The notes under the pieces were generated by a model, which had not been told where the DNA came from, did not search any database, and saw nothing but the letters and a program-made list of their open reading frames with translations. Below are positions 1 through 22,947 of a DNA stretch of 23,559 bases, piece after piece. The translations under genes were made by a program, and so were the position numbers. Every line of letters starts with the position of its first letter. Positions within the stretch are counted from its first letter, which is position 1. The DNA comes from Deltaproteobacteria bacterium (GTDB taxonomy: Bacteria; Desulfobacterota; DSM-4660; Desulfatiglandales; HGW-15), in contig DAOVAK010000002.1 of the NCBI GenBank assembly GCA_030671095.1, forward strand, positions 1 to 23,559, written 5' to 3'.

Positions 1-2030
1 ACCATGCGGAGCAGACCCCCGTCCCCGACGATGAATTTTCTCTGCGTGACATTGTACTTGGAGTGTCCCACAAACCCGGGGGAGGATTGTCCGCCTCCCA
101 TGACACCAGCCAAGGTGGTGAATTTCATCCCGCATGGCGTCTCTTTGGTGTACTCCCGGTTAACGGTCATCACCCCGTTGCAGCCGGGTAACACGGCGGC
201 AATACACTCGCAACAGCCACAGGTGGTCATGGGATCAATGACAAGACTGTAAAAATTATAGTGGTCTACGGCTTGGCGCGACGTCTTATAAACAAACTCG
301 TTGACCCCCTTCCACTGTCCCAGCTTGGGATCGAGGCACTCTCCCTTTTCCACAGGCTGGTTGGGGCCGGTCGGGTTGATCTCGAAAGAGGCCTTGCAGT
401 CCATCCAGTTATAGGCGCCACAAAGACCTGTCCTCTCCGGGCTGATCATGCAGACATGGTTGGGGGCGAAGGACTGGCAAAGGGTGCAAGAATAATAGGT
501 CTCCACGCCCTCATCGGTCATCTTCTCCACCCGGTCATCCCTTCCCTTGTACTCGCCCTTGGCCCTTTTTGTGAGTTTATCCACATCCCCTTTCTTGGTG
601 TACAGGGTCACAGCAACCTTATCCAGGATGTTAGCAAAGTCCTGATGGAGCTTGGCATGAAGGATCGTGCCGATATCCTTCAGGGTGAAGCCCTTTTCTA
701 TGGCCTGATCGCCCACCCTGATCCAGGCAATGTCCCGCTGTCCGATATGCATGATGCCTTGGGCATAATTGATCAGGTGGTGAATCTGCCTTTCCAAAAT
801 GGGCTCAAAGTCGGGCTGCATCTGACGGCCTGCTACCTGGACATAAATACCTAACGGTAAGTTGTCGCCTTTTTTCAGGTCTTTTATATCTGGACCGATC
901 ACGTCCACTTTTCCATCCTCGATCTCATTCATTTCCGCCATCTTACAGAGCTCCGTGCACGGGCTCTTGCCGCCGCCCACCTCCAGGAAGAGGTCATCCT
1001 TGCGAACCCGCTCTCCTTCGAATGCCGGCCCATAGGCCAACGGGATGTCGATCTCGGCGATAGTTACCTTGAGACCCCGGATCTCGATGGATCTGGATGT
1101 AAGCTCATCGTGCGTCACATTGGCCACCACATGCTCATAGGTGCAGACACCTGTGGGCAGGACCTCTGGAATATCCGTATCTGCCAAGGTGGGGAATCCC
1201 CAGTTGATGGCGCCTGCCGCATTGGCAGCCCATTCCGCATTCACATCACCCATTGCATTGACAAAGGCGAAGATGCGGTTTTTCTGATAGGCGAGTTGCT
1301 TCTTGAAATCACCCGGCTCGATGCCACCAAAGGACATCCCGGCCCGGTTCGCAAAGCCGAGGGCAAACACGGCCGCAGATATATCGGGCCCAAAGGGGAC
1401 AAGGCGGGTGTTCCACCCAATCTGTACATTCTCCTCCAGAAGTTGCTCTGCAAACGTGGTCCCGTTCTGACTGGCCGCCATGAACACATAGATGGTTTTC
1501 AATTGATACTCTTCAGCAATCTTTTTTGCTGTTGCAGAATCGGGCGCAGCCCCAACAATGGCGGCAAAACCGGGAGCTGTGCCATCCACAAACTCCACAC
1601 CCCGCTTTCTCATGATGGCGTCGTCGGCCGCACCCAACCATATTTTCCCGTTATCCACATCGGGGTCTTCCATTTCAGCCTGGTAAAAATCAGGGTCCTC
1701 CACATACCGAACGGCCTCCACAATCTCCTCGGCAAAGAGGGCCGCCATGCCCGCATCCAGCAACGGACCCAGATAGGGTAGATGCACGTCTTTCTTGATA
1801 TGGGGCGGCAAAAGCTTACGGGCAAATTCTAAGGGCTTTCCTGCCGAGTCCAGATCGGTAACCTTGATTCCGGTCAAGGAATAAATAATAGGCAAGTAAT
1901 AGGCGGTATTAGGAAATTCCAGTTTCTGACTACCGCCATAGGTCTCCAGGGCCCTCTTATACTTCCCTTCCGCCTTCGAAACAATGTTGTAAGCGCCCTG
2001 AATCGCTGCAAATGCTACCAATTTCGACAT
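1..2030 (-). CDS. acsB: Acetyl-CoA synthase (CODH/ACS beta subunit), 3' end cut by window
   Basis: Makes acetyl-CoA from CO, a methyl group delivered by the corrinoid iron-sulfur protein, and CoA; partner of the CO dehydrogenase encoded just upstream. About 676 codons are visible and the frame is open to the window edge; the bacterial family is about 730 residues, so roughly 50 are missing. The A-cluster ligands are all present: Cys515, Cys518, Cys527 and Cys537 for the 4Fe-4S cluster, and the Cys604-Gly605-Cys606 motif that binds the distal nickel. Their spacing (3, 9, 10, 67) equals that of the Moorella enzyme as I remember it (506/509/518/528/595). ATG start at 2030 has a strong AGGAG ribosome site about 9 nt upstream. 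It follows acsA by 53 nt, clearly the same operon. No in-frame stop is seen in the visible part. Identity is near certain; activity is inferred. Confidence 0.97.
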   Translation of the reverse strand, partial: MSKLVAFAAIQGAYNIVSKAEGKYKRALETYGGSQKLEFPNTAYYLPIIYSLTGIKVTDLDSAGKPLEFARKLLPPHIKKDVHLPYLGPLLDAGMAALFAEEIVEAVRYVEDPDFYQAEMEDPDVDNGKIWLGAADDAIMRKRGVEFVDGTAPGFAAIVGAAPDSATAKKIAEEYQLKTIYVFMAASQNGTTFAEQLLEENVQIGWNTRLVPFGPDISAAVFALGFANRAGMSFGGIEPGDFKKQLAYQKNRIFAFVNAMGDVNAEWAANAAGAINWGFPTLADTDIPEVLPTGVCTYEHVVANVTHDELTSRSIEIRGLKVTIAEIDIPLAYGPAFEGERVRKDDLFLEVGGGKSPCTELCKMAEMNEIEDGKVDVIGPDIKDLKKGDNLPLGIYVQVAGRQMQPDFEPILERQIHHLINYAQGIMHIGQRDIAWIRVGDQAIEKGFTLKDIGTILHAKLHQDFANILDKVAVTLYTKKGDVDKLTKRAKGEYKGRDDRVEKMTDEGVETYYSCTLCQSFAPNHVCMISPERTGLCGAYNWMDCKASFEINPTGPNQPVEKGECLDPKLGQWKGVNEFVYKTSRQAVDHYNFYSLVIDPMTTCGCCECIAAVLPGCNGVMTVNREYTKETPCGMKFTTLAGVMGGGQSSPGFVGHSKYNVTQRKFIVGDGGLLRM

Positions 2031-2083: not shown

Positions 2084-4132
2084 TTAAGCCGCTTCCAGAT
2101 CCCGCCGTGCAGCCATATCCACAAGCACTCTCTCGCCGGCCTTATCAATACGCAACGCCTTGCGCTTCTTATCAATGTGCGCGATCATCTTGTGAGCATG
2201 TTTGATCGGATCGGCCTCCATATCCCACATGCCGCCGTAAATTTCTTCCAGTTCTTTATACAGGTGATTCTCAAACACCGGTGCTCCACTCACCGGGAGA
2301 GTGACTCCGAATACCGTGTAAACCCCGGATACGACAAAATAGTGGCCGATACTTATGGCCTTCTCGCTCATCCACTCGGGCGCCGAACCGGCCGCCGGTA
2401 GATCACTAATATCATTTCCCAGGCCACCAGCCTTGACCACTTCGGTGGCCGCCATCAGGATCCGGCTATTATCTACACAGGAGCCCATATGCAGCACTGG
2501 TGGGATTCCCACTGTCTCGCAGACCTCGGCCAGGCCCGGCCCGCAATAAACCTTTGCAGATTCCGGAGTCAGAAGACCCGCCTTGGCACAGGCAATGGCG
2601 TTGCATCCGGTGGTCAGTACGATAACATCATGCTTGACCAATTCCTTAACGACTGTGATATGCCCCTCGTCCAGAGAGGTTCGGGCGTTGTTTCACCCAA
2701 CCACGCCGCCGATACCTCGTATGCGGCCGTTGATGATGTTGTCATTGAGGGGCGTATAAGATCCGCGGAAGGTTCCGCCCAGGTGATAATTGATTGCCTC
2801 ATAGCTGAAACCCGCAATCAAATCCGAGGCATTTTGGGGTATCATGACCTCCTTTTCCCTGTTGGGGAAATTCTCTATAGCGGTCCTTACAATCTTCTTG
2901 GCATCCTCAAAAGCGGTATGTTCATCGAATTCAATATGGACCGTATCACCAGAGGCGATCTTGGCCCTCGGATTGGTCGTGATAATCTTGGTGTGGAAAC
3001 ACTGGGCCACATTGGCGATGTTTTCCATGATGCACTGGACATCCACAACCATAGCTTCCACCGCACCTGTGATGATCGCCAGCTCTTGCTGTAAGAAATT
3101 TCCCGCTAAGGGAATACCGTGGCGCATGAGAAGCTCGTTGGCCGTACAACAGATGCCGCTCAGCTGAATCCCGTTTGCGCCTTTCTCTTTGGCCAGTTCC
3201 ACCAATTCGGGCAGTTCAGAGGCCTGGACGATCATTTCGCTCAGGAGCGGCTCATGCCCGTGGATGATGATGTTCACGTGGTCTTCCCGGAGCGTTCCCA
3301 AATTGGCAGAGCTTTTAACGGGATAAGGGCAACCAAAAAGGACATCCTGCAGGTCTGTAGCGATCATGGACCCGCCCCATCCATCCCCGATGGCTGCACG
3401 GGTGCACTGCTCAGTGAGATTTTCATAGTCCTGATCCACACCGATATGGGTCCGGTGCATGATCTCCACGATCTCTCGATCGATGCCTCTCGGAACGACC
3501 CCCAGTTTTTTCCAAAGCTCATATCGCGCAGCAGGCGCTCTTTTTGCTGTACAGACTTCACCTGTCTGCTGGCCCCACTGTCCCAAGGCCTTCTCACCTA
3601 CCTCCACAGCGATCTCATCCATATTCCGATCAAGAACTTCTCCATTTTCACCTTCTACAGTGATGTCCACCCCGAAATCAGGGGCAATCTCTAAGAGTTT
3701 CTTCGTATCCTTAATCTTGTAATCTTCTGTCTCCTTCCTCGCGGCTGCCAGAAATGTCTCTGCCACACCCCGTCCATGGTCAGAATGGGCTGCAGCTCCA
3801 GCCGCAACCATTCTTGCAAAATTTCTCGCTGCTATGGTCTCAGGCGTCGCACCACAAAGACCTTTTCGCGTGTCCTCTCCCTCTATGCCACTTTTCGGTA
3901 AGGGGAGCCTGCAGGGTCCCTGAGCACAATTCTTACAGCACGTCCCCTGGACACCTATATTACAGGGTTTCATCTTCTGGGCCCGGTCAAAGATGGTCTC
4001 CACCTCCATCTCCCTCGACCTCTTTATCATTGCCATGCTGGCTGGATCAATGGTCAAATCTTCTGGCTCGAAGATCTTCTTCACCTTTTCTTTGCCCACC
4101 GCCACTTTCTTTTTGACTTCTTCTGTCGTCAT
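2084..4132 (-). CDS. acsA: Ni-dependent CO dehydrogenase, probable selenoprotein (in-frame UGA at codon 480)
   Basis: Reversibly reduces CO2 to CO and passes CO to acetyl-CoA synthase. The frame runs 682 codons, the normal family size, with a single interruption: TGA at codon 480 (2695-2693). Both sides are in the same frame and well conserved, so this is not a frameshift. Residues 1-479 hold the D/B-cluster cysteines 57, 65, 66, 69, 74 and 93, the HGHEP histidine region (291-295), Cys329 and Cys367. Residues 481-682 hold Cys510, Cys552 (motif MGSCVDN) and the MSEKA lysine. The UGA lies 113 codons after Cys367 and 30 before Cys510, the spacing of C-cluster ligands Cys333, Cys446 and Cys476 in Carboxydothermus CODH-II, so it replaces the Cys446 equivalent (motif GG-VVG-x-NN). 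gyrB, birA and the second dnaA all end in TGA, so UGA is normally a stop here. ATG start has GAGGA upstream; stop is TAA. Alternatives are a sequencing error (TGC/TGT to TGA) or a recent nonsense mutation. Confidence 0.93.
2663..2679 (-). promoter_or_regulatory. SECIS-like hairpin downstream of the acsA UGA
   Basis: In the mRNA a 6-bp stem CCUCUC/GAGGGG (one U-G wobble) closes a 5-nt loop UGGAC. The stem begins 13 nt after the UGA and the loop guanines lie 21-22 nt after it. Bacterial SECIS elements sit directly downstream of the UGA within the coding sequence, with a short stem and a G near the start of the apical loop; this one fits that model in position and shape. No lower stem is obvious. 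The call is by eye, without a folding calculation. Confidence 0.6.
2693..2695 (-). other. In-frame UGA, proposed selenocysteine codon 480 of acsA
   Basis: Seen directly: TGA on the minus strand, between a Gly codon (GGG) and two Asn codons (AAC AAC). In the family this position is a cysteine (GCNN motif) that ligates an iron of the C-cluster. Selenocysteine for cysteine is the usual exchange in bacterial selenoproteins. Support comes from the conserved downstream 202 codons and the hairpin 13 nt further on. The selA/selB/selC machinery is not in this window. Confidence 0.75.
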
Positions 4133-4186
4133 TATAAGGTTCCTCCTCTTTCTTTTCTTTTTTCCTCTTAGCTGTTTGGATCCTGA

Positions 4187-5743
4187 TTATATACGTTTGT
4201 GTATACGATCCAGATTGTCTATCAACTTATCAACCCAACTCTTCTGGGCACGTGCTGGTGTCTTGCTCACCTTCTCACGTTCACGCTCAGCCCTCTGAGC
4301 TTCGAGTTTCTCTCTCTCCAGGCCCCTTTGATATCTAAGGGCTTTTAAGTCCTCTTTTTCTTTGGCTTTTGCTTCGGCTATTTTTCGGGCTTCTTCCTCC
4401 GCCTTGGCCTTAGCTTTCGCCTCTGCCTCTGCCCTAGCCCAATCTTCCTCTTCCGCCTTCTTTCTCGCCTCTTCCTCCGCCCTTTTCTTGGCATCCTCCT
4501 CAGCCTTGGCTTTCGCCTCTGCTTCTGCTTTGGCCTTAGCCTCTTCCTCTGGCTTTTCTTTGGGCTTCAGTTCCACCACTTTCTCTTCAGGCCTTGGGAC
4601 CTCCTTCGGTTTCTCTTCCTTCTTCTCCGGTTTTGGCGCCGCTTTGACCTCCTTCTTTTTCGGCTCGGCCGGTTTTTCTTTGGCCGGAACGGCCTCTTCC
4701 GCAACGGCCAGCTTTGGTTCTGGGGATATGGAGAGCAGATCCGCTTCCTGCAGCTTCAAATTCTTGGAAATCTCTGGCACATCGGTGGCCACGCCGCCAT
4801 TCATCATCAGATCAATAAATGATCGTGTGAGCCTAACACTCTCCGGGTGCCTCAGGATTACCACATCAGCTCCGCCCAGAAGATAACTCACCGATGCCAC
4901 CGTCTCCATGAGAACACCGCGCCTCTCTGGATCACCGAGGGTAGGCACCTCTTCCAAGGGTTGACCTGCCTCCTTAGATTTCCAGACTTCATTTCCAATG
5001 TTAGATATCATGGGGATCTGGAGCTTATCGTCCTCCTGGGTCAGGGCTGCCATACGAATCCTTTCCATGACAGAGTAGGAATATTCAAGGCCGTATCCAA
5101 GTCCACCTGTTGTGGGGTCAATGACGATCTTTTCGCTTGGCACACCCAAGTTGCCCAGCAAGATGTTCAGCTGCTTGGCCAGATTCACGTCGATGGGAGA
5201 AGAGGCCACAATGGTGTGACCATATCCAATGGCACTGGCACCCACGCCCTTGTAGTTTGCCTCTTCCACAGGTGCCAGGGCAACGTTCTTGCCCTGACAA
5301 TCCTCTGAGATCTTCTTCAAGACCTCCTCATCCTTCTGGTTGTTTGCCGTACCCCACACCACAACAGGCACATCAACGGCCTCTATCACCTTCTTGGCCA
5401 CCTGGGCGGCCTCATCTGTCCCCCTGTCCATACCATTGGGGTCCGTGCTCTTCATCTGAAGTACGATGATGTCGGCGCCATATTCATCCACATTTTTTTT
5501 GGCCCAAGCATCAGGTGAAGCAATGACGTCCTTAAATGGTTCCACAGCAGCGGCAGGCCACTCCTCAGACGGATCGTAATCCCATATCTCCATGGCAATC
5601 TTGGGCGCGTTGGGCATGTCCCCCTCAAATAGGTGAAAAGGATAGGATTCCTCCCCTCCCAAATTGAGTGCACCGCCTCCAGCACCTATGGTTGTCTGTC
5701 CGATCTCTCCCGAATAAGGCTGTTTGGGTATTTCAAAGGCCAA
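4187..5743 (-). CDS. acsD: Corrinoid iron-sulfur protein small subunit (ACS delta) with a long charged C-terminal tail
   Basis: Small subunit of the corrinoid iron-sulfur protein, which carries the methyl group from methyltetrahydrofolate to acetyl-CoA synthase. Residues 1 to about 330 are the TIM-barrel core, recognisable from the N-terminal AGGGALNLGG stretch, the IVLQMKSTDPNG segment and DPTTGGLGYGLEYS near 209-222; this matches the usual size of about 310-325 residues. About 190 extra residues follow: a Pro/Lys/Glu linker (341-398), a highly charged Ala/Lys/Glu stretch (399-490) that should form a long single helix or coiled coil resembling TolA, and a final amphipathic segment (501-518, KSWVDKLIDNLDRIHKRI). 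The start codon is TTG, chosen because an ideal AGGAGGT lies 7 nt upstream and the N-terminus matches the family. acsA follows 54 nt downstream. The large subunit gene acsC is not in view and may lie beyond acsB. Confidence 0.94.
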   Translation of the reverse strand: MAFEIPKQPYSGEIGQTTIGAGGGALNLGGEESYPFHLFEGDMPNAPKIAMEIWDYDPSEEWPAAAVEPFKDVIASPDAWAKKNVDEYGADIIVLQMKSTDPNGMDRGTDEAAQVAKKVIEAVDVPVVVWGTANNQKDEEVLKKISEDCQGKNVALAPVEEANYKGVGASAIGYGHTIVASSPIDVNLAKQLNILLGNLGVPSEKIVIDPTTGGLGYGLEYSYSVMERIRMAALTQEDDKLQIPMISNIGNEVWKSKEAGQPLEEVPTLGDPERRGVLMETVASVSYLLGGADVVILRHPESVRLTRSFIDLMMNGGVATDVPEISKNLKLQEADLLSISPEPKLAVAEEAVPAKEKPAEPKKKEVKAAPKPEKKEEKPKEVPRPEEKVVELKPKEKPEEEAKAKAEAEAKAKAEEDAKKRAEEEARKKAEEEDWARAEAEAKAKAKAEEEARKIAEAKAKEKEDLKALRYQRGLEREKLEAQRAEREREKVSKTPARAQKSWVDKLIDNLDRIHKRI

Positions 5744-6165: not shown

Positions 6166-6918
6166 CTATTTACGGTTCAAAATCTTCTCAAAGATTTCAT
6201 AGGCCGCTTCCAGTGCCTTACTCTCCCTATCGAGTTCTATGGTTGGCCTTCCCTCGAGATCAAAATCGCGCACCAGCAGATCTTCAGGCACTATCCCAAT
6301 CAGCTCCAGGGGATATTGGCTGACGGCCTTTTCAATGGTCTCCAACTGTTCTTCTTTGGCCTGATTGATGATCAGCAGTTTCTGGTTGATATCGAGTGCC
6401 AACTCATGGGTCAATTGCAAAATTCTGGCCGCCGATTGAATTCCCCTCCGGCTGGGATCGGAGACGATGAGCAGAAGGTCAATGTTGTTGGTCGTTAATC
6501 TACTGATATGTTCCATGCCCGCTTCATTGTCGATCACCACGTAGGCATAGTTACTGATCAGCCTATCCAGGTATTGGGTGAGTAACGTGTTGGCGGCACA
6601 ATAGCAACCTGCCCCTTCTGGCCTTCCCATAACGATCAAATCAAACCCCTTTGCCTCAACCACTGCCTGCTCCAGCTTCATCTCCATGAACACATCTTTC
6701 GTCATCCCTGCTGCCACGCCCACCTTCATCTCCTCCCTCGCCTGCCCCAGGGTCTCCTCCACTTCGAGTCCGAGGACCTCATTGAGATTGGCGTTTGAAT
6801 CCGCATCCACACCCAGGATGGGCGTTTTTCCCTGTTCTATCAGGTACTTAATGAGCATACCGGCTATGGTGGTTTTCCCTGTTCCCCCTTTACCAGCAAG
6901 GCCAATTGAGTAGGGCAT
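6166..6918 (-). CDS. cooC: CooC/AcsF-type nickel-insertion ATPase
   Basis: A MinD/SIMIBI-family ATPase that matures nickel sites of CO dehydrogenase or acetyl-CoA synthase; acts in the cytosol as a dimer. The 250 residues begin with a deviant Walker A loop GKGGTGKTT at 9-17, followed by VDADSNANL near 37-45. Cys105-Tyr-Cys107 is the CXC metal-binding motif of the CooC family, which separates it from ordinary MinD or ParA proteins. ATG start has a strong AAGGAGG site. It is the first gene of the acs cluster on the minus strand and separated from acsD by 422 nt, so it may have its own promoter. Whether it serves CODH (CooC) or ACS (AcsF) cannot be told from sequence alone. Confidence 0.92.
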   Translation of the reverse strand: MPYSIGLAGKGGTGKTTIAGMLIKYLIEQGKTPILGVDADSNANLNEVLGLEVEETLGQAREEMKVGVAAGMTKDVFMEMKLEQAVVEAKGFDLIVMGRPEGAGCYCAANTLLTQYLDRLISNYAYVVIDNEAGMEHISRLTTNNIDLLLIVSDPSRRGIQSAARILQLTHELALDINQKLLIINQAKEEQLETIEKAVSQYPLELIGIVPEDLLVRDFDLEGRPTIELDRESKALEAAYEIFEKILNRK

Positions 6919-7014: not shown

Positions 7015-8325
7015 ATGTCAAAAAAAAAAGACATATGGGAGCAAATCACCAAAAGTTTGGAATCTCAACTGTCCAAATCAGAGCTTAACACATGGTTCTC
7101 TCAAGCAACGCTCAGAAAATCTAATCCCGACTTAGCGATCATCGGCGTCCCCAATAAATTTATTGCCAATTGGTTACGAGAAAAATATTACATCCAGATC
7201 AAAAACGCCTTTGAAGCCATCCTCAACCGATCCCCCGAATTACACTTCATCTATGATCACCCATCTGACAGGGTAGAATCCCCTGATGGGGAACCCTCCC
7301 TGAAACAGGAAGTCTATTCTGAACATCAATTAGATCCGTCCATGACTTTCGATGGGCTTCACATGGGAGAATGCAATCGTTTTGCCTGTTCATCGGCCTT
7401 AGAGGTCGCCAAAAGGCCGGCTGAGCAATATAACCCATTCTACATCTTTTCTGATCTGAGCCTAGGTAAGACCCATCTCTTGAACGCCATAGGAAACCAT
7501 GTACTCCGTAAAAACCCATATTCTCACGTGCGGTATCTCTCTTCAAACACATTCACTTCTGATTTTACTTATTCCATAAAGAACAAAAATCTTCAGGCGT
7601 TCCGGGAAAGATATTGTGGTCTCGATTTGCTGCTATTGGACGATGTACAGTTGCTCGGGAACCGTAAAAGGACACAAGAGGAATTTCTTTTCGTTTTTGA
7701 CGCCCTCTACGGAGCCAGGAAGCAGATTGTGATTTCGGGGGATAGCCCCCCGAATCAACTGACGAGGATGAACTCTCGCCTGAAATCAAGACTGGGCTCC
7801 GGACTCATCTCAGAGATTGAGGTCCCGGATCAGAGCACAAAGATACACATTATTAGGAAAAAGGCAAAAGAAGATGGTATTCCTATTCCGGATGACGTAA
7901 TCTTCTTTCTCGCCAAGTCCAATAGGGATATCAAGGGGCTAATCAAGAATATCGTGAGGATTGAGACCTATGCATCGCTCAACCGTGGAGACATAAACAT
8001 CTCCAGGGTAAAATCTCTCATCAAGGATGATAGGAGAAAGGAAGCTGGAATGGATGATGTGAAATCCATCACAGCGGGCTATTTCAATATCTCCCTGTCT
8101 GAGCTCATCTCAAAGAAAAAACAGAGAGTCTATTCCTATCCAAGACAGGTGGCTATGTATCTCTGCAGGAAATACACGGATTCATCCTTTAAGCAGATCG
8201 GAGATGCCTTTGGGAATAAGGACCATTCCACAGTGATCTACGCCGTGAATCGGATTGAGAAGTACAAGGTTCGGAAAAAAGAGATACGGGAAGATCTGAA
8301 TAAGCTGGAGGATTTATTGGGATAA
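7015..8325 (+). CDS. dnaA: DnaA family replication initiator, paralogue 1, with altered P-loop
   Basis: Domain I (residues 1-75, with the WFSQATL and VPNKFIANWLREKY segments), a short linker, AAA+ domain III and DNA-binding domain IV are all present in 436 residues, near the family length. Walker B is LDLLLLDD (203-210), arginine-finger residues R255 and R259 are kept, and sensor II arginine appears to be R315. The domain IV signature reads NKDHSTVIYA (401-410), close to the usual GRDHTTVLHA. The P-loop is odd: S146-D-L-S-L-G-K-T153 instead of GG(T/V)GLGKT, losing three glycines including the invariant first one. Start is ATG followed by a run of ten A residues in codons 2-5; no clear ribosome site. 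It heads the dnaN-gyrB-gyrA block, the normal place for dnaA. ATP affinity may be altered (inference). Confidence 0.9.
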   Translation: MSKKKDIWEQITKSLESQLSKSELNTWFSQATLRKSNPDLAIIGVPNKFIANWLREKYYIQIKNAFEAILNRSPELHFIYDHPSDRVESPDGEPSLKQEVYSEHQLDPSMTFDGLHMGECNRFACSSALEVAKRPAEQYNPFYIFSDLSLGKTHLLNAIGNHVLRKNPYSHVRYLSSNTFTSDFTYSIKNKNLQAFRERYCGLDLLLLDDVQLLGNRKRTQEEFLFVFDALYGARKQIVISGDSPPNQLTRMNSRLKSRLGSGLISEIEVPDQSTKIHIIRKKAKEDGIPIPDDVIFFLAKSNRDIKGLIKNIVRIETYASLNRGDINISRVKSLIKDDRRKEAGMDDVKSITAGYFNISLSELISKKKQRVYSYPRQVAMYLCRKYTDSSFKQIGDAFGNKDHSTVIYAVNRIEKYKVRKKEIREDLNKLEDLLG

Positions 8326-19121: not shown

Positions 19122-20267
19122 TCACATCTTGCCCCGCCTCTGGCCAGTTGATCCCAACCGACTCGGCCCAGCGCGTCGCGGGGCGTCAACATCTTCTTTC
19201 CCCCTGAAAATGTGTGCGATTACAGCGCATTGCAGACCAAAGGGGAGATAGCCCGCGTATCCCAGAACGGGCATCTCAAATATCTGGTAGCGATGGACGA
19301 AAGGGATGCTGTACTTCCATTTAGCAAGGCTGTAGTAATTCCACATTTCCCAAAAGAAACCACAGATGAGGGCCGCCAGGGCAGCGGTAAGCACATGGCG
19401 CCAATCTCCATGAGGCATACGTGAAAAGATGTGGCTGTCTTCAAAAATATTTTGAAGGGAGACGATAATGAGCAGAGGAGATACCCAGAGGAGAGGAAAT
19501 AGGTGGTTGGGCCAGACGCCAATGCCTGCTAGCCCAACACCTGTAATGAAGAGAACGGCCCATGCTAGCCGTTTTGGCCGGTTGCATTTGATGGATAAGT
19601 AGTTCCGGAATTTCCTCGCTGGCCAAGAGAAACTGAGCAGCCACTCCTGGGTTCCCATGACAGCGGGTAGAACGGTTGAGAAGGGCAGAGTCGCGTACCA
19701 GAAATACTCCCATGGACCAAATTGGCCCCCCACGTAGTACCAGTTTTGTACGAACCGGTTAAGGTATTCAAAGAACCACCAAAAGGCTGCGCTTAAGGGA
19801 AAGAGCAGGAGAAAAGCGTGGGGACGGTCGCGCATCATGCAGTGGCCAGTTCGGTGATATGTCAGGGCATTAATGGTGATGATATAGGCTATCCATAAGG
19901 GGGTGAAAGTGTGGGGCTGAAATCTGACAAACCAGTGAAACCGGCTCCAGGCTAATATCCAGGCGACGACGCCTAATAGGGTGCCGAACCATCCCCACCA
20001 GGGAAATGGAAAGGCATGTGAGCGCGTAACCCTTTCGCCAGCCTTTACCCTTAATACCCGGATGAGGAAAGGACTTACCACTGCCAGCACAAAAATGGAG
20101 TAGCCTGTGAAAACGGGCCAAGAGAAGGGTGCATGCTCCACGTAGGCGGAATGAGGAGGGAACTCCAGATAGGTGGCTATCTCCTTGTTGGAGAGGATAA
20201 TCCCCAGCATAGGAAGCCCCAACAACATCATCGTGAGGAGAGAGAAATTTAAGACCGTCTTTTTCAT
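19122..20267 (-). CDS. Multi-pass inner-membrane protein of unknown function with an internal repeat
   Basis: I do not recognise a named family. The 381 residues are very rich in Trp and Phe and contain about 9-10 hydrophobic segments (roughly 5-25, 51-72, 90-107, 122-137, 150-169, 190-212, 234-252, 255-272, 293-308, 335-354), then a basic, probably cytoplasmic tail (355-381). Two halves share a pattern: FFEYLN...NWYY at 165-178 and FWEMWN...KWKY at 305-319, each followed by an acidic residue and an L-P-F motif (E187/P195-F196 and E331/P342-F343). The conserved Glu and Asn lie within or at the edge of membrane segments. ATG start has AGGTGAAG upstream. It may be co-transcribed with ilvA, but no functional link is evident. 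Confidence 0.85.
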   Translation of the reverse strand: MKKTVLNFSLLTMMLLGLPMLGIILSNKEIATYLEFPPHSAYVEHAPFSWPVFTGYSIFVLAVVSPFLIRVLRVKAGERVTRSHAFPFPWWGWFGTLLGVVAWILAWSRFHWFVRFQPHTFTPLWIAYIITINALTYHRTGHCMMRDRPHAFLLLFPLSAAFWWFFEYLNRFVQNWYYVGGQFGPWEYFWYATLPFSTVLPAVMGTQEWLLSFSWPARKFRNYLSIKCNRPKRLAWAVLFITGVGLAGIGVWPNHLFPLLWVSPLLIIVSLQNIFEDSHIFSRMPHGDWRHVLTAALAALICGFFWEMWNYYSLAKWKYSIPFVHRYQIFEMPVLGYAGYLPFGLQCAVIAHIFRGKEDVDAPRRAGPSRLGSTGQRRGKM

Positions 20268-20652: not shown

Positions 20653-20910
20653 CTAAATGCTGATCGTATCCTTTTCTTTCATTGCATTGAGAATGAGCCG
20701 GGAAAGACGCAGAAATGGCCACAAGACCAGAATCATACAGAGCATTCCGGTAAGGATGGGCATCCAGAATCCGTCCTGTTGCACGTGGCTTAGCCCGACC
20801 CAGATGGAGACAATTGCAGCAAAAATGATATAGGCAGCAAGGAAGGCAGAAAGGAGGAATAGGGACCAGAGGCCCAGGTTTTTCAACGGCAATGGCTCGT
20901 GAGAAATCAT
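20653..20910 (-). CDS. Small membrane protein with two transmembrane helices
   Basis: The 85-residue product has two hydrophobic helices at about 12-38 and 50-72, with a short loop and a basic/charged C-terminus. The family is not recognised. Its ATG overlaps the TGA of the upstream dnaA paralogue by 4 nt (ATGA), which argues that it is translated and coupled to that gene. No strong separate ribosome site. A tie to replication initiation is only suggested by position. Confidence 0.7.
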   Translation of the reverse strand: MISHEPLPLKNLGLWSLFLLSAFLAAYIIFAAIVSIWVGLSHVQQDGFWMPILTGMLCMILVLWPFLRLSRLILNAMKEKDTISI

Positions 20911-22256
20911 TTTGTCATACTTTGTAGCCTTTGTCGCACAAAGTTTACATGGTTTTTCACCTTATTGTCCACCCTTATTTTGTGTTCAATGACCTCCGAA
21001 GCATACAGGACCGTCGAATGATTTCGTTGAATGGATTTGCCTATGTCTTCAAGGGTTGCCTCCGTGTGATGGCGGCAGAGATAGACGTATATACTGCGAG
21101 GATAAGCGTGGATCTTTTTCCTCGATTTTGACCGGAGCATGAGCGGTTCAATCTTGAAATACCGACAGACAATCTTTTCAATCTCTTCCATTTTGGTCGA
21201 TTCCTGTTCAGAGACATGGCATCTGAGCACCTCTTTGGCCAGGTCCAGATTTATCTTAGCGTTCATGAGTTCGGATTTGGCCTTAAGACACCTGAGGGCA
21301 CTCTCCATCTGACGGATATCCCGGGTCAGGTGCTTCGCGAAGAGATGAAAGATTTCTTCAGATAGAGTCAGGTTTTGCTCAGCAGACTTTTTTTGGAGGA
21401 TCTTGAGTGCGGTTTTGTAATCCGGTCTGTCAAGGGTGGTAATGACACCCGAGGTGAGACGAGATGATAGTTCCTTTGCGAGGTTTGGGATATCTTTGGG
21501 CAAGAGGGGACTGGTGAAAATGAGCTTTTTGTGTGCGTTTGCCAGAGCATCCAACGTATATCCGAGTTCAACCTGCGTTTTTCCTTTGCCGCCCAAGAAA
21601 TGGACCTCTTCCAATAGAAGGACGTCACAGCTCCTCCGATATTTGTTCTTGAATTCATCAATTTGGCCATTCCTTAGGGCAAAGATCATCTGATTCACAA
21701 AATCTTCTGCCGTAATGTAGCATACCCTGACCGTCGGATCACGATTTAGGATGGCGTGTCCAATGGCCTGGGAGAGGTGGCTCTTGCCCAGCCCCGTGCT
21801 TGCCAACATAAAAAGAGGGTTGTAGGGCTGATTCGCCCCGAGGGCAAGGGCCTTTGAGGCAGAGAAGGCAAACTCATTGCACGCCCCCACAACAAAACGG
21901 TCAAAGGTGAATTCTTTATTGAGCCAACTCCTTCCCACCCTTCTCTTGGTGGGCATGTTGGGAAGGGTCAACTGTTTAGAGCCATTGCCGCTGTCAGAGA
22001 GAGGTCTCTTTTTAGGCGGAGCCTTGACCTTCAAATCGAGTTTGTAATGGCCATTTCCTATCTTATCAAGCTTCTCTTCTATGATGCCCCTATAGTTGTC
22101 CACAATCCAGTTGCGGGCAAACTTGTTGGGGCATCCGAGAACAAGGGTATCATCGTTGTTCTCTAAAAAAACCATGGAGCTTATCCATAGTTGGAAGCTT
22201 TTTTCCGGAATAGCAGGCCGGACCTGGTTTTTTACCTCTTCCCAAATGGCACTCAT
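20907..22256 (-). CDS. DnaA family protein, paralogue 2, diverged ATPase site
   Basis: A 449-residue DnaA-type protein: domain I (1-75), linker (75-112), AAA+ domain III from FTFDRFVVGACNEFAF (116-131), and domain IV ending in the helix-turn-helix. ATG at 22256 was chosen over one 66 nt upstream because GGAGAG lies about 9 nt before it and the N-terminus then matches DnaA domain I. Key sites differ from canonical DnaA: P-loop A152-S-T-G-L-G-K-S159 lacks the first Gly, Walker B is LLLEE (213-217) instead of DD, the residue matching E. coli Arg281 is Glu262, and the sensor II Arg appears to be Cys323. Arg-finger R266 is kept. The DNA-reading signature is QRNHSTVLYA (410-419), without the usual GRDH. 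It may be a regulator or specialised initiator rather than the main one (inference). Confidence 0.88.
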   Translation of the reverse strand: MSAIWEEVKNQVRPAIPEKSFQLWISSMVFLENNDDTLVLGCPNKFARNWIVDNYRGIIEEKLDKIGNGHYKLDLKVKAPPKKRPLSDSGNGSKQLTLPNMPTKRRVGRSWLNKEFTFDRFVVGACNEFAFSASKALALGANQPYNPLFMLASTGLGKSHLSQAIGHAILNRDPTVRVCYITAEDFVNQMIFALRNGQIDEFKNKYRRSCDVLLLEEVHFLGGKGKTQVELGYTLDALANAHKKLIFTSPLLPKDIPNLAKELSSRLTSGVITTLDRPDYKTALKILQKKSAEQNLTLSEEIFHLFAKHLTRDIRQMESALRCLKAKSELMNAKINLDLAKEVLRCHVSEQESTKMEEIEKIVCRYFKIEPLMLRSKSRKKIHAYPRSIYVYLCRHHTEATLEDIGKSIQRNHSTVLYASEVIEHKIRVDNKVKNHVNFVRQRLQSMTK

Positions 22257-22947
22257 TGTGGACTCTCCAAGAAAAGGAAAGGTGGGAATGACTGTTTGTG
22301 TATTATTGAAAATATGCAGCAAGCGTTTTACCCGTCTCGCTCAGAGAGTGGGGCGGGAGGTAGCGAATGAATTGCAATTATTATCAAAGAAAATTGTTCG
22401 CGCTTCGCTTGGACGCCTCATCCTTCGGGTGGATCCCCGATTTTCTTATATTCGGAATTTCTATGAAATCGGGACTGTCCCTGCACTAAGCGTGGGGACC
22501 GAAGGAAGCTACAACCTAAGAATCGGCTACTATCTGAATATTGTGGAGGCTGTCAAAGCGGATGGGGAGCCGGAATAACTTAGCTTGCATCCAATTTTTG
22601 ACATACCCTAACTCGCTGAAAAGACGATAATATTTTTTGCTGTGGGGGTAACATTCAGTTAAACATCAATAAATTGGAAACGCGGATTTGCCATTGAATT
22701 CAGAAACTTTCCCAATTTCTCCCGGTGGTGTATAAATATATTAACAATGAAGAATCTCCGATTTTCTGCGATCTGGTTTAATTTTTGTCGGTTTTCATTT
22801 TATTACGCTTCATTTTTTTGAACGCAATACGCTGTTAAGCATGGCCCGGACTTCAGGTAAGATTCTTGCATGAAATCGGAGAGTCTCGCAGTTCAAGGGC
22901 ATTGTTATTTTGTCGTTGTTTTAGGTGACCCGTTGAGATATATAGGT
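22257..22947. other. Long non-coding region with recurring inverted motifs between dnaA paralogue 2 and ddl
   Basis: No credible gene. Structure seen: a UUCG-type hairpin TCATCC-TTCG-GGTGGA (22418-22433); an inverted repeat CCCGATTT/AAATCGGG (22436-22473); a hairpin GTCCC...GGGAC (22477-22499); and a distant inverted pair CTCCGATTT (22756-22764) and AAATCGGAG (22873-22881). The words CCGATTTTCT and ATGAAATCGG each occur twice. The part from 22330 to 22570 is structured enough to suggest an RNA, but no known family is recognised. The rest is AT-rich and must hold the divergent promoters of dnaA paralogue 2 and ddl. Confidence 0.4.

Follow-up and report, generated by a model that had tools for sequence, protein, structure and literature searches.

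An in-frame UGA codon predicted to encode selenocysteine at a C-cluster ligand of a Ni-Fe CO dehydrogenase

The acsA locus and its gene context

The window, as we call the whole 23,559-nucleotide stretch of deltaproteobacterial DNA that was analyzed, carries on its minus strand acsA, the gene for the catalytic subunit of CO dehydrogenase (CODH; 2084..4132). The gene runs from 4132 to 2084 and has 682 codons plus a TAA, with one UGA inside; the product has 682 residues when the UGA is read as an amino acid. The UGA, predicted here to encode selenocysteine (Sec), is codon 480 (2693..2695, minus strand, read as bases 2695-2693) and the sole internal stop of the gene. The original prediction of one in-frame UGA in an otherwise intact, full-length acsA was accurate, coordinates included. 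The sequence GGAGG, nine bases ahead of the ATG (4142..4146, minus strand), is a likely ribosome-binding site. In profile searches, residues 28-660 of AcsA match NCBIfam TIGR01702, the anaerobic CO dehydrogenase catalytic subunit, at 615.1 bits, which exceeds the curated cut-off of 478. UGA terminates five of the 15 window genes checked and so retains its meaning as a stop in the window; global reassignment of the codon was rejected for this reason.

The neighbors of acsA are those expected of a CODH/acetyl-CoA synthase (ACS) gene context: acsA adjoins acsB and acsD both in the window and in another genome with a UGA-containing acsA, G053. In the window, acsB (acetyl-CoA synthase subunit; 3..2030, minus strand) lies downstream and is cut by the window edge, leaving 676 open codons. 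Upstream are acsD, assigned by profile match to the small (delta) subunit of the corrinoid protein (4187..5743, minus strand), and a gene for a MinD/ParA-type ATPase (6166..6918, minus strand). The ATPase has no specific family match; we presume that it may be a CooC-like nickel-insertion ATPase. Past about residue 340, AcsD continues into a long, TolA-like C-terminal extension rich in Lys, Glu, and Ala, and AcsD of G053 is likewise long (524 codons). Elsewhere in the window there are two dnaA-type genes, one of 436 codons (7015-8325, plus strand) that adjoins dnaN, gyrB, and gyrA, and one of 471 codons (20907-22322, minus strand). A UGA-terminated open reading frame of 381 codons (19122-20267, minus strand) has no Pfam match.

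The UGA aligns with a ligand of the C-cluster

In the CODH of D. vulgaris, His266 and Cys302 bind the unique iron, Cys340 binds Fe1, Cys519 binds Ni, and the cubane is held by four cysteines (PMC6168284, excerpt). Window residues His293, Cys329, Cys367, 480, Cys510, and Cys552 align with 266, 302, 340, 448, 478, and 519 of D. vulgaris chain 6b6v after subtraction of 8, an offset inferred from the chain being 8 residues longer than 6vwy and one that fits every named ligand. The codons concerned, all on the minus strand, are those of His293 (3254..3256) and Cys329 (3146..3148), aligned to the two ligands of the unique iron; Cys367 (3032..3034), aligned to the cubane iron ligand Cys340; Cys510 (2603..2605), aligned to position 478 and by spacing to Cys476 of C. 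hydrogenoformans CODH-II; and Cys552 (2477..2479), aligned to the Ni ligand. Codon 480 itself aligns to Cys448 (offset-corrected) and falls on the Cys of the GCNN motif in alignments with five solved CODHs. The CODH-II residues that have been compared are His261, Cys295, Cys333, Cys446, Cys476, and Cys526 (PMC10502027, excerpt), and this ligand set marks 448 as one of the four cubane cysteines.

The spacings agree with this assignment. From Cys329 through Cys367 and 480 to Cys510 they are 38, 113, and 30, identical to those of CODH-II; the last two had been put forward in the original prediction and are borne out by count. The outer spacings differ from those of CODH-II (36 versus 34 from the His to the first Cys, and 42 versus 50 between the last two Cys), as expected from length differences. 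By alignment, then, codon 480 corresponds to a cysteine ligand of a cubane iron of the C-cluster, Cys446 in CODH-II. The C-cluster set comprises one His and five Cys. Five of these are present in the window protein and are kept wherever covered in the 16 UGA sequences described below. Since the codon for the sixth is UGA, the set is complete only if Sec (or Cys) is inserted there.

Conservation of the UGA among relatives

A scan of genome contigs, from which 80 loci were kept, found codon 480 to be TGC in 62, TGT in 17, and TGA in one (L001, of genome G001). In the neighborhood of G001, 197 genomes were searched and 133 matched at E 1e-100, and among the matches listed, 15 genomes had one TGA in the gene, in every case at codon 480. 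Neither these 15 further genomes nor the window has any other stop in the matched stretch (L116 and L123, among the UGA loci, are partial genes). The original prediction had called for homologs with UGA at the same position, and these genomes supply them. In 13 other genomes near G001, orthologs at least 83% identical have Cys at the site. In a sample of the phylum (395 genomes, 231 matched), the matches listed with a TGA were limited to three of the genomes counted above and G204, which has TGC at site 480 despite the flagged TGA. Of the places in more distant CODHs where stops were flagged, eight were read; five of these have no stop in the tblastn-aligned stretch and three have one near an end (residues 18, 663, and 680), and site 480 is Cys in all eight.

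Gene callers end these genes early at the UGA, so that surveys built on called proteins overlook or misinterpret them. When the 479-residue piece was used as query, 34 short proteins were among the best 120 matches, and 33 of the 34 stop exactly before site 480; these 33 are likely UGA forms of which the proteins alone are visible. GCNN is present in all 120 listed matches of the full-length protein search, as expected of called proteins. The closest protein to window AcsA, P0122, is 99% identical, has 479 residues, and stands for seven member sequences. Cys is found at the site in P0002, whose identity is 91% across the full length. Desulfatiglans anilini, a Desulfatiglandaceae, and Desulfobacterales metagenome-assembled genomes are among the named homologs with 86-90% identity, so the window probably stems from an uncultured bacterium related to them.

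That many named relatives are metagenome assemblies could be taken to favor a sequencing error or a decaying pseudogene. Against this, the identical codon is found in 15 further genomes, and the 479-residue P0122 stands for seven sequences. One of the UGA genes, in G053, lies in a contig of 5,085,533 bases (5.1 Mb) with the acs operon intact: around it acsD, acsB, and acsC score above their family cut-offs and an acsE-like gene scores under its cut-off (215 versus 259 bits), each in one open frame. There is also purifying selection downstream of the UGA. For the group as a whole the shared codon and the purifying selection refute error and decay, which we regard as scarcely credible. Four of the 15 UGA genomes (G001, G042, G046, and G062) have no second CODH match at E 1e-100 among the matches listed.

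The selection can be compared on the two sides of the UGA. Median pN/pS, taken over 120 pairs of UGA sequences, is 0.108 upstream (codons 1-479) and 0.097 downstream (codons 494-682); the downstream stretch is, by this measure, under as much constraint as the upstream one. Values of pS between the window gene and each other UGA sequence are 0.60-0.91, from which the UGA is judged to have persisted through near-saturated synonymous change. These results bear on the idea of a split gene, in which a 479-residue product is made together with a separate downstream protein (ORF 2641-2084), or the truncated product is used alone. A TTG-initiated ORF of 185 codons does span the downstream part. However, that part is equally constrained, carries Cys510 and Cys552, and has kept its frame without indels in 16 sequences. 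The two pieces would also have to form one buried cluster, and the hairpin described in the next section would serve no need. A split gene is accordingly a very improbable account.

A predicted SECIS hairpin after the UGA

In bacterial selenoprotein genes a stem-loop (SECIS) is expected just after the UGA, within general spacing rules. In acsA a hairpin is predicted at 2663..2679 (minus strand), with a 6-bp stem that pairs bases 17-22 with 28-33 (counting the UGA as 1-3) and a 5-base loop. Its apical loop, at 2669..2673 (minus strand), is UGGAC in the window and UGGAY across the 16 UGA sequences compared, and begins 19 bases past the UGA. RNAalifold, run de novo on the 16 UGA sequences, found only this helix (-10.17 kcal/mol); with 16 Cys orthologs the helix was not found (-0.34 kcal/mol). 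Paired cells in the helix amount to 99.0% in the UGA set versus 32.3% in the Cys set. The difference is also seen when only 20 bases are folded, the median being -10.2 kcal/mol for the 16 UGA forms versus -0.7 for 91 Cys forms, of which seven match or exceed the weakest UGA form in stability.

One pair covaries. Pair 21-29 is U-A in seven UGA sequences and G-C in nine; the 5' change is synonymous (serine), the 3' change replaces Glu with Ala, and the switch occurred at least twice on the tree. Four of the six pairs are invariant, and one varies one-sidedly and is broken in L094. When the 61 bases of the window were folded singly, a different fold was obtained, with a z-score of +1.06. In the window no Rfam family reached its gathering threshold, and two matches near the UGA were at chance level. 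Taken with its layout, which recurs in selD, the comparative evidence supports the assignment of the hairpin as a predicted SECIS.

The selD layout and the selenocysteine machinery

SelD (selenophosphate synthetase) is unrelated in protein to AcsA and is a long known selenoprotein (Table 1 of PMC13188914, excerpt). The UGA-containing selD genes of the same genomes have the arrangement seen in acsA: a UGA, 19 bases, a 5-base loop with GGA, and a short stem. A search of the 15 UGA genomes for selD located 13 in-frame TGA codons, spread over 11 genomes, and the motif Gly-UGA-Ala-(Ser/Ala) in 12 of 15 selD loci. Among these 12, the UGA is followed after 19 bases by a GGGAC loop in 10 and by GAGAC in one, and one differs. 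The collected loci and the window were scanned on both strands for the layout (UGA, 19 bases, NGGAY, and five flanking pairs), L089 being left out. Only 26 of 38,014 TGA triplets fit: 15 distinct acsA and one duplicate (L142, which overlaps L090 and is counted once among the distinct acsA), nine selD, and one unrelated (L029). L094 is the sole acsA to fail the scan, and acsA is the only match among the 917 TGA triplets of the window. The acsA genes fit by construction because the motif was taken from them, which is not so for selD.

Genes for the decoding machinery are present in relatives. In genome searches, the 15 UGA genomes yielded selA in 13, selB in 14, selC in 12, and selD in 12. At least one of selA, selB, and selC was found in each of the 15, as the original prediction had proposed for genomes with UGA homologs, although the same is seen in Cys-form relatives: among 20 relatives without UGA in acsA (16 read as Cys and four judged only by absence of a stop), selA was found in 19, selB in 15, and selC in 19. 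Since the sel genes are about as common in these relatives, their co-occurrence does not discriminate Sec from Cys forms, and it was dropped as a test. In G001, selA and selB are accompanied by a tRNA-Sec whose anticodon is UCA, and a tRNA-Sec is present in G053 also.

Some genomes have more than one match of this kind. A second selB match, covering about 344 of 581 profile positions, was seen in G030:C262:7138-8391, G050:C174:6392-7625, and G012:C239:1908-3109, in each case adjoining a further tRNA-Sec match of lower score (about 56 bits). These may possibly be a second Sec-decoding set.

The only precedent that we found for a UGA in a CODH gene is the acsA of C. autoethanogenum, which likewise has an in-frame UGA (PMC4895105, excerpt). 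There the internal TGA is read through at a low level, and Sec was thought unlikely by the authors (PMC4895105, excerpt). By extension, decoding of the window UGA could be free of selenium, with Cys, Trp, or a different residue brought in by a suppressor or near-cognate tRNA, as has been proposed for that gene. That Cys is the ancestral-type residue at site 480, kept by many relatives, would suit such a reading. However, the C. autoethanogenum UGA is unlike the one in the window: it is codon 401, at a Ser site, is inefficiently read, and is reported as unique to the species and not conserved in relatives (PMC4895105, excerpt). Codon 401 aligns to window residue 436, a Ser, 44 residues from site 480. 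The site-480 UGA, in contrast, is conserved, stands on a Cys position, and has a hairpin layout in common with selD. Also against a suppressor is an incomplete survey of the tRNAs of G053 (150 of 200 candidates scored, those read including no tRNA for Ile, Asp, or Tyr), in which the only UCA anticodon is that of tRNA-Sec and the single tRNA-Cys seen has GCA. For this survey, 26 of the 30 loci returned and four more were read, and the four omitted lie inside loci that were read. Insertion of a residue other than Sec is thus improbable, in our judgment. In PDB 6ytt chain B, the deposited CODH chain of C. autoethanogenum, Cys is present at the position counted as codon 401, the one reported as UGA (PMC4895105, excerpt).

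Selenium at the active site of CODH

The window acsA very probably encodes a Ni-Fe CODH in which the UGA at codon 480 is decoded as Sec, so that an iron of the active-site cluster would carry selenium. The original prediction of Sec at a C-cluster ligand is backed by the UGA in 15 genomes, the hairpin with its covarying pair, the selD layout, and the sel genes of relatives. In the mechanism that we propose, SelB and tRNA-Sec would read the UGA with help from the hairpin, and the selenium of residue 480 would bind one of the three cubane irons. In the acetyl-CoA pathway, the predicted Sec enzyme would have AcsB and the corrinoid protein as partners. Since close relatives have Cys at the site, Sec probably tunes the enzyme rather than being needed for catalysis.

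The Cys-type Ni-Fe CODHs of CODH/ACS (AcsA/CooS, TIGR01702), including those of D. vulgaris and C. hydrogenoformans (CODH-II), share with window AcsA the whole sequence, the other ligands, and the acsB/acsD operon. Unlike these, the window acsA has a predicted Sec in place of Cys at one cubane-iron ligand and a SECIS-like hairpin. The [NiFeSe] hydrogenases offer a parallel: there too, some members of a Cys-type family have Sec instead of Cys at a catalytic Ni-Fe site, and Sec at the Ni is associated with reduced O2 sensitivity and with protection from oxidative damage (PMC10779653, excerpt). However, the hydrogenase is an unrelated protein, and its Sec binds Ni, whereas the Sec in the window would bind a cubane iron. 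The class III hybrid cluster protein is homologous to CODH in fold, and its persulfide Cys347 superposes on Cys446 of CODH-II (PMC10502027, excerpt). It differs from CODH in having an Fe-S-O cluster and no Ni, and window AcsA scores only 25.5 bits against TIGR01703 (hydroxylamine reductase/hybrid cluster protein), far under the cut-off of 360.8. The C-cluster of D. vulgaris CODH rearranges upon oxidation (PMC6168284, excerpt). From the hydrogenase analogy and the persulfide at the equivalent residue of the hybrid cluster protein, we speculate that a selenolate might help to protect the cluster or ease its re-reduction once oxidized. The original prediction had suggested that a selenolate could shift the redox potential or alter the behavior toward O2 or CO.

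A literature search that covered mainly openly available, published journal papers turned up no description of a CODH catalytic subunit with Sec. None is listed in Table 1 of a 2026 inventory of 119 prokaryotic selenoprotein families and subfamilies, which includes HgcA, HgcB, HdrA, NiFe hydrogenase subunits, and a GenBank-annotated nitrogenase subunit (PMC13188914, excerpt). An excerpt of PMC9312934 mentions only a 'CO dehydrogenase/acetyl-CoA synthase gamma subunit', and excerpts of PMC8318568, PMC1794560, and PMC5039349 have nothing on Sec in the catalytic subunit. If the prediction is true, a core enzyme of carbon fixation joins the selenoprotein list. CODH is a central and much studied metalloenzyme, and the tuning of its C-cluster, above all its oxygen sensitivity, is a live question. 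With a selenium ligand, nature would have perturbed a single iron and provided a spectroscopic handle (77Se EPR/ENDOR and Se K-edge EXAFS), and Cys relatives 82-91% identical to the window protein allow direct comparison.

Exchange of selenocysteine and cysteine

In trees, the Sec and Cys forms of close relatives are intermixed. A 40-row tree, which omits loci with <74% identity or <300 aligned residues, implies four Sec/Cys changes (three to five over bootstraps), one of them forced by starred branches. A 200-row N-terminal tree, which omits loci with <72% identity and P0141, implies at least 16 changes, seven of them forced by starred branches, with 33 of its 49 Sec labels resting on truncation. 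Both trees are weakly resolved, and the minimum is four or 16 depending on the tree. Left out of the rows were L089, which is the L001 gene, and L100, L102, L107, and L115, taken as duplicates. We lean slightly toward a broader proposal, that there is a natural seleno-CODH lineage in which a Sec iron ligand, at the residue equivalent to the persulfide of the hybrid cluster protein, tunes the enzyme or protects it against oxidation, and has been toggled with Cys several times, leaving natural Sec/Cys pairs.

The residues after the site hint at the direction of some of these changes. T(S/T/P)LD(E/A)GH follows the site in all 16 UGA forms; the majority of Cys forms differ at these positions, frequently with His in place of Leu. 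TSLD is retained in six Cys proteins (P0002, P0003, P0027, P0029, P0035, and P0118) and in locus L002, which suggests that Sec-to-Cys reversals have occurred.
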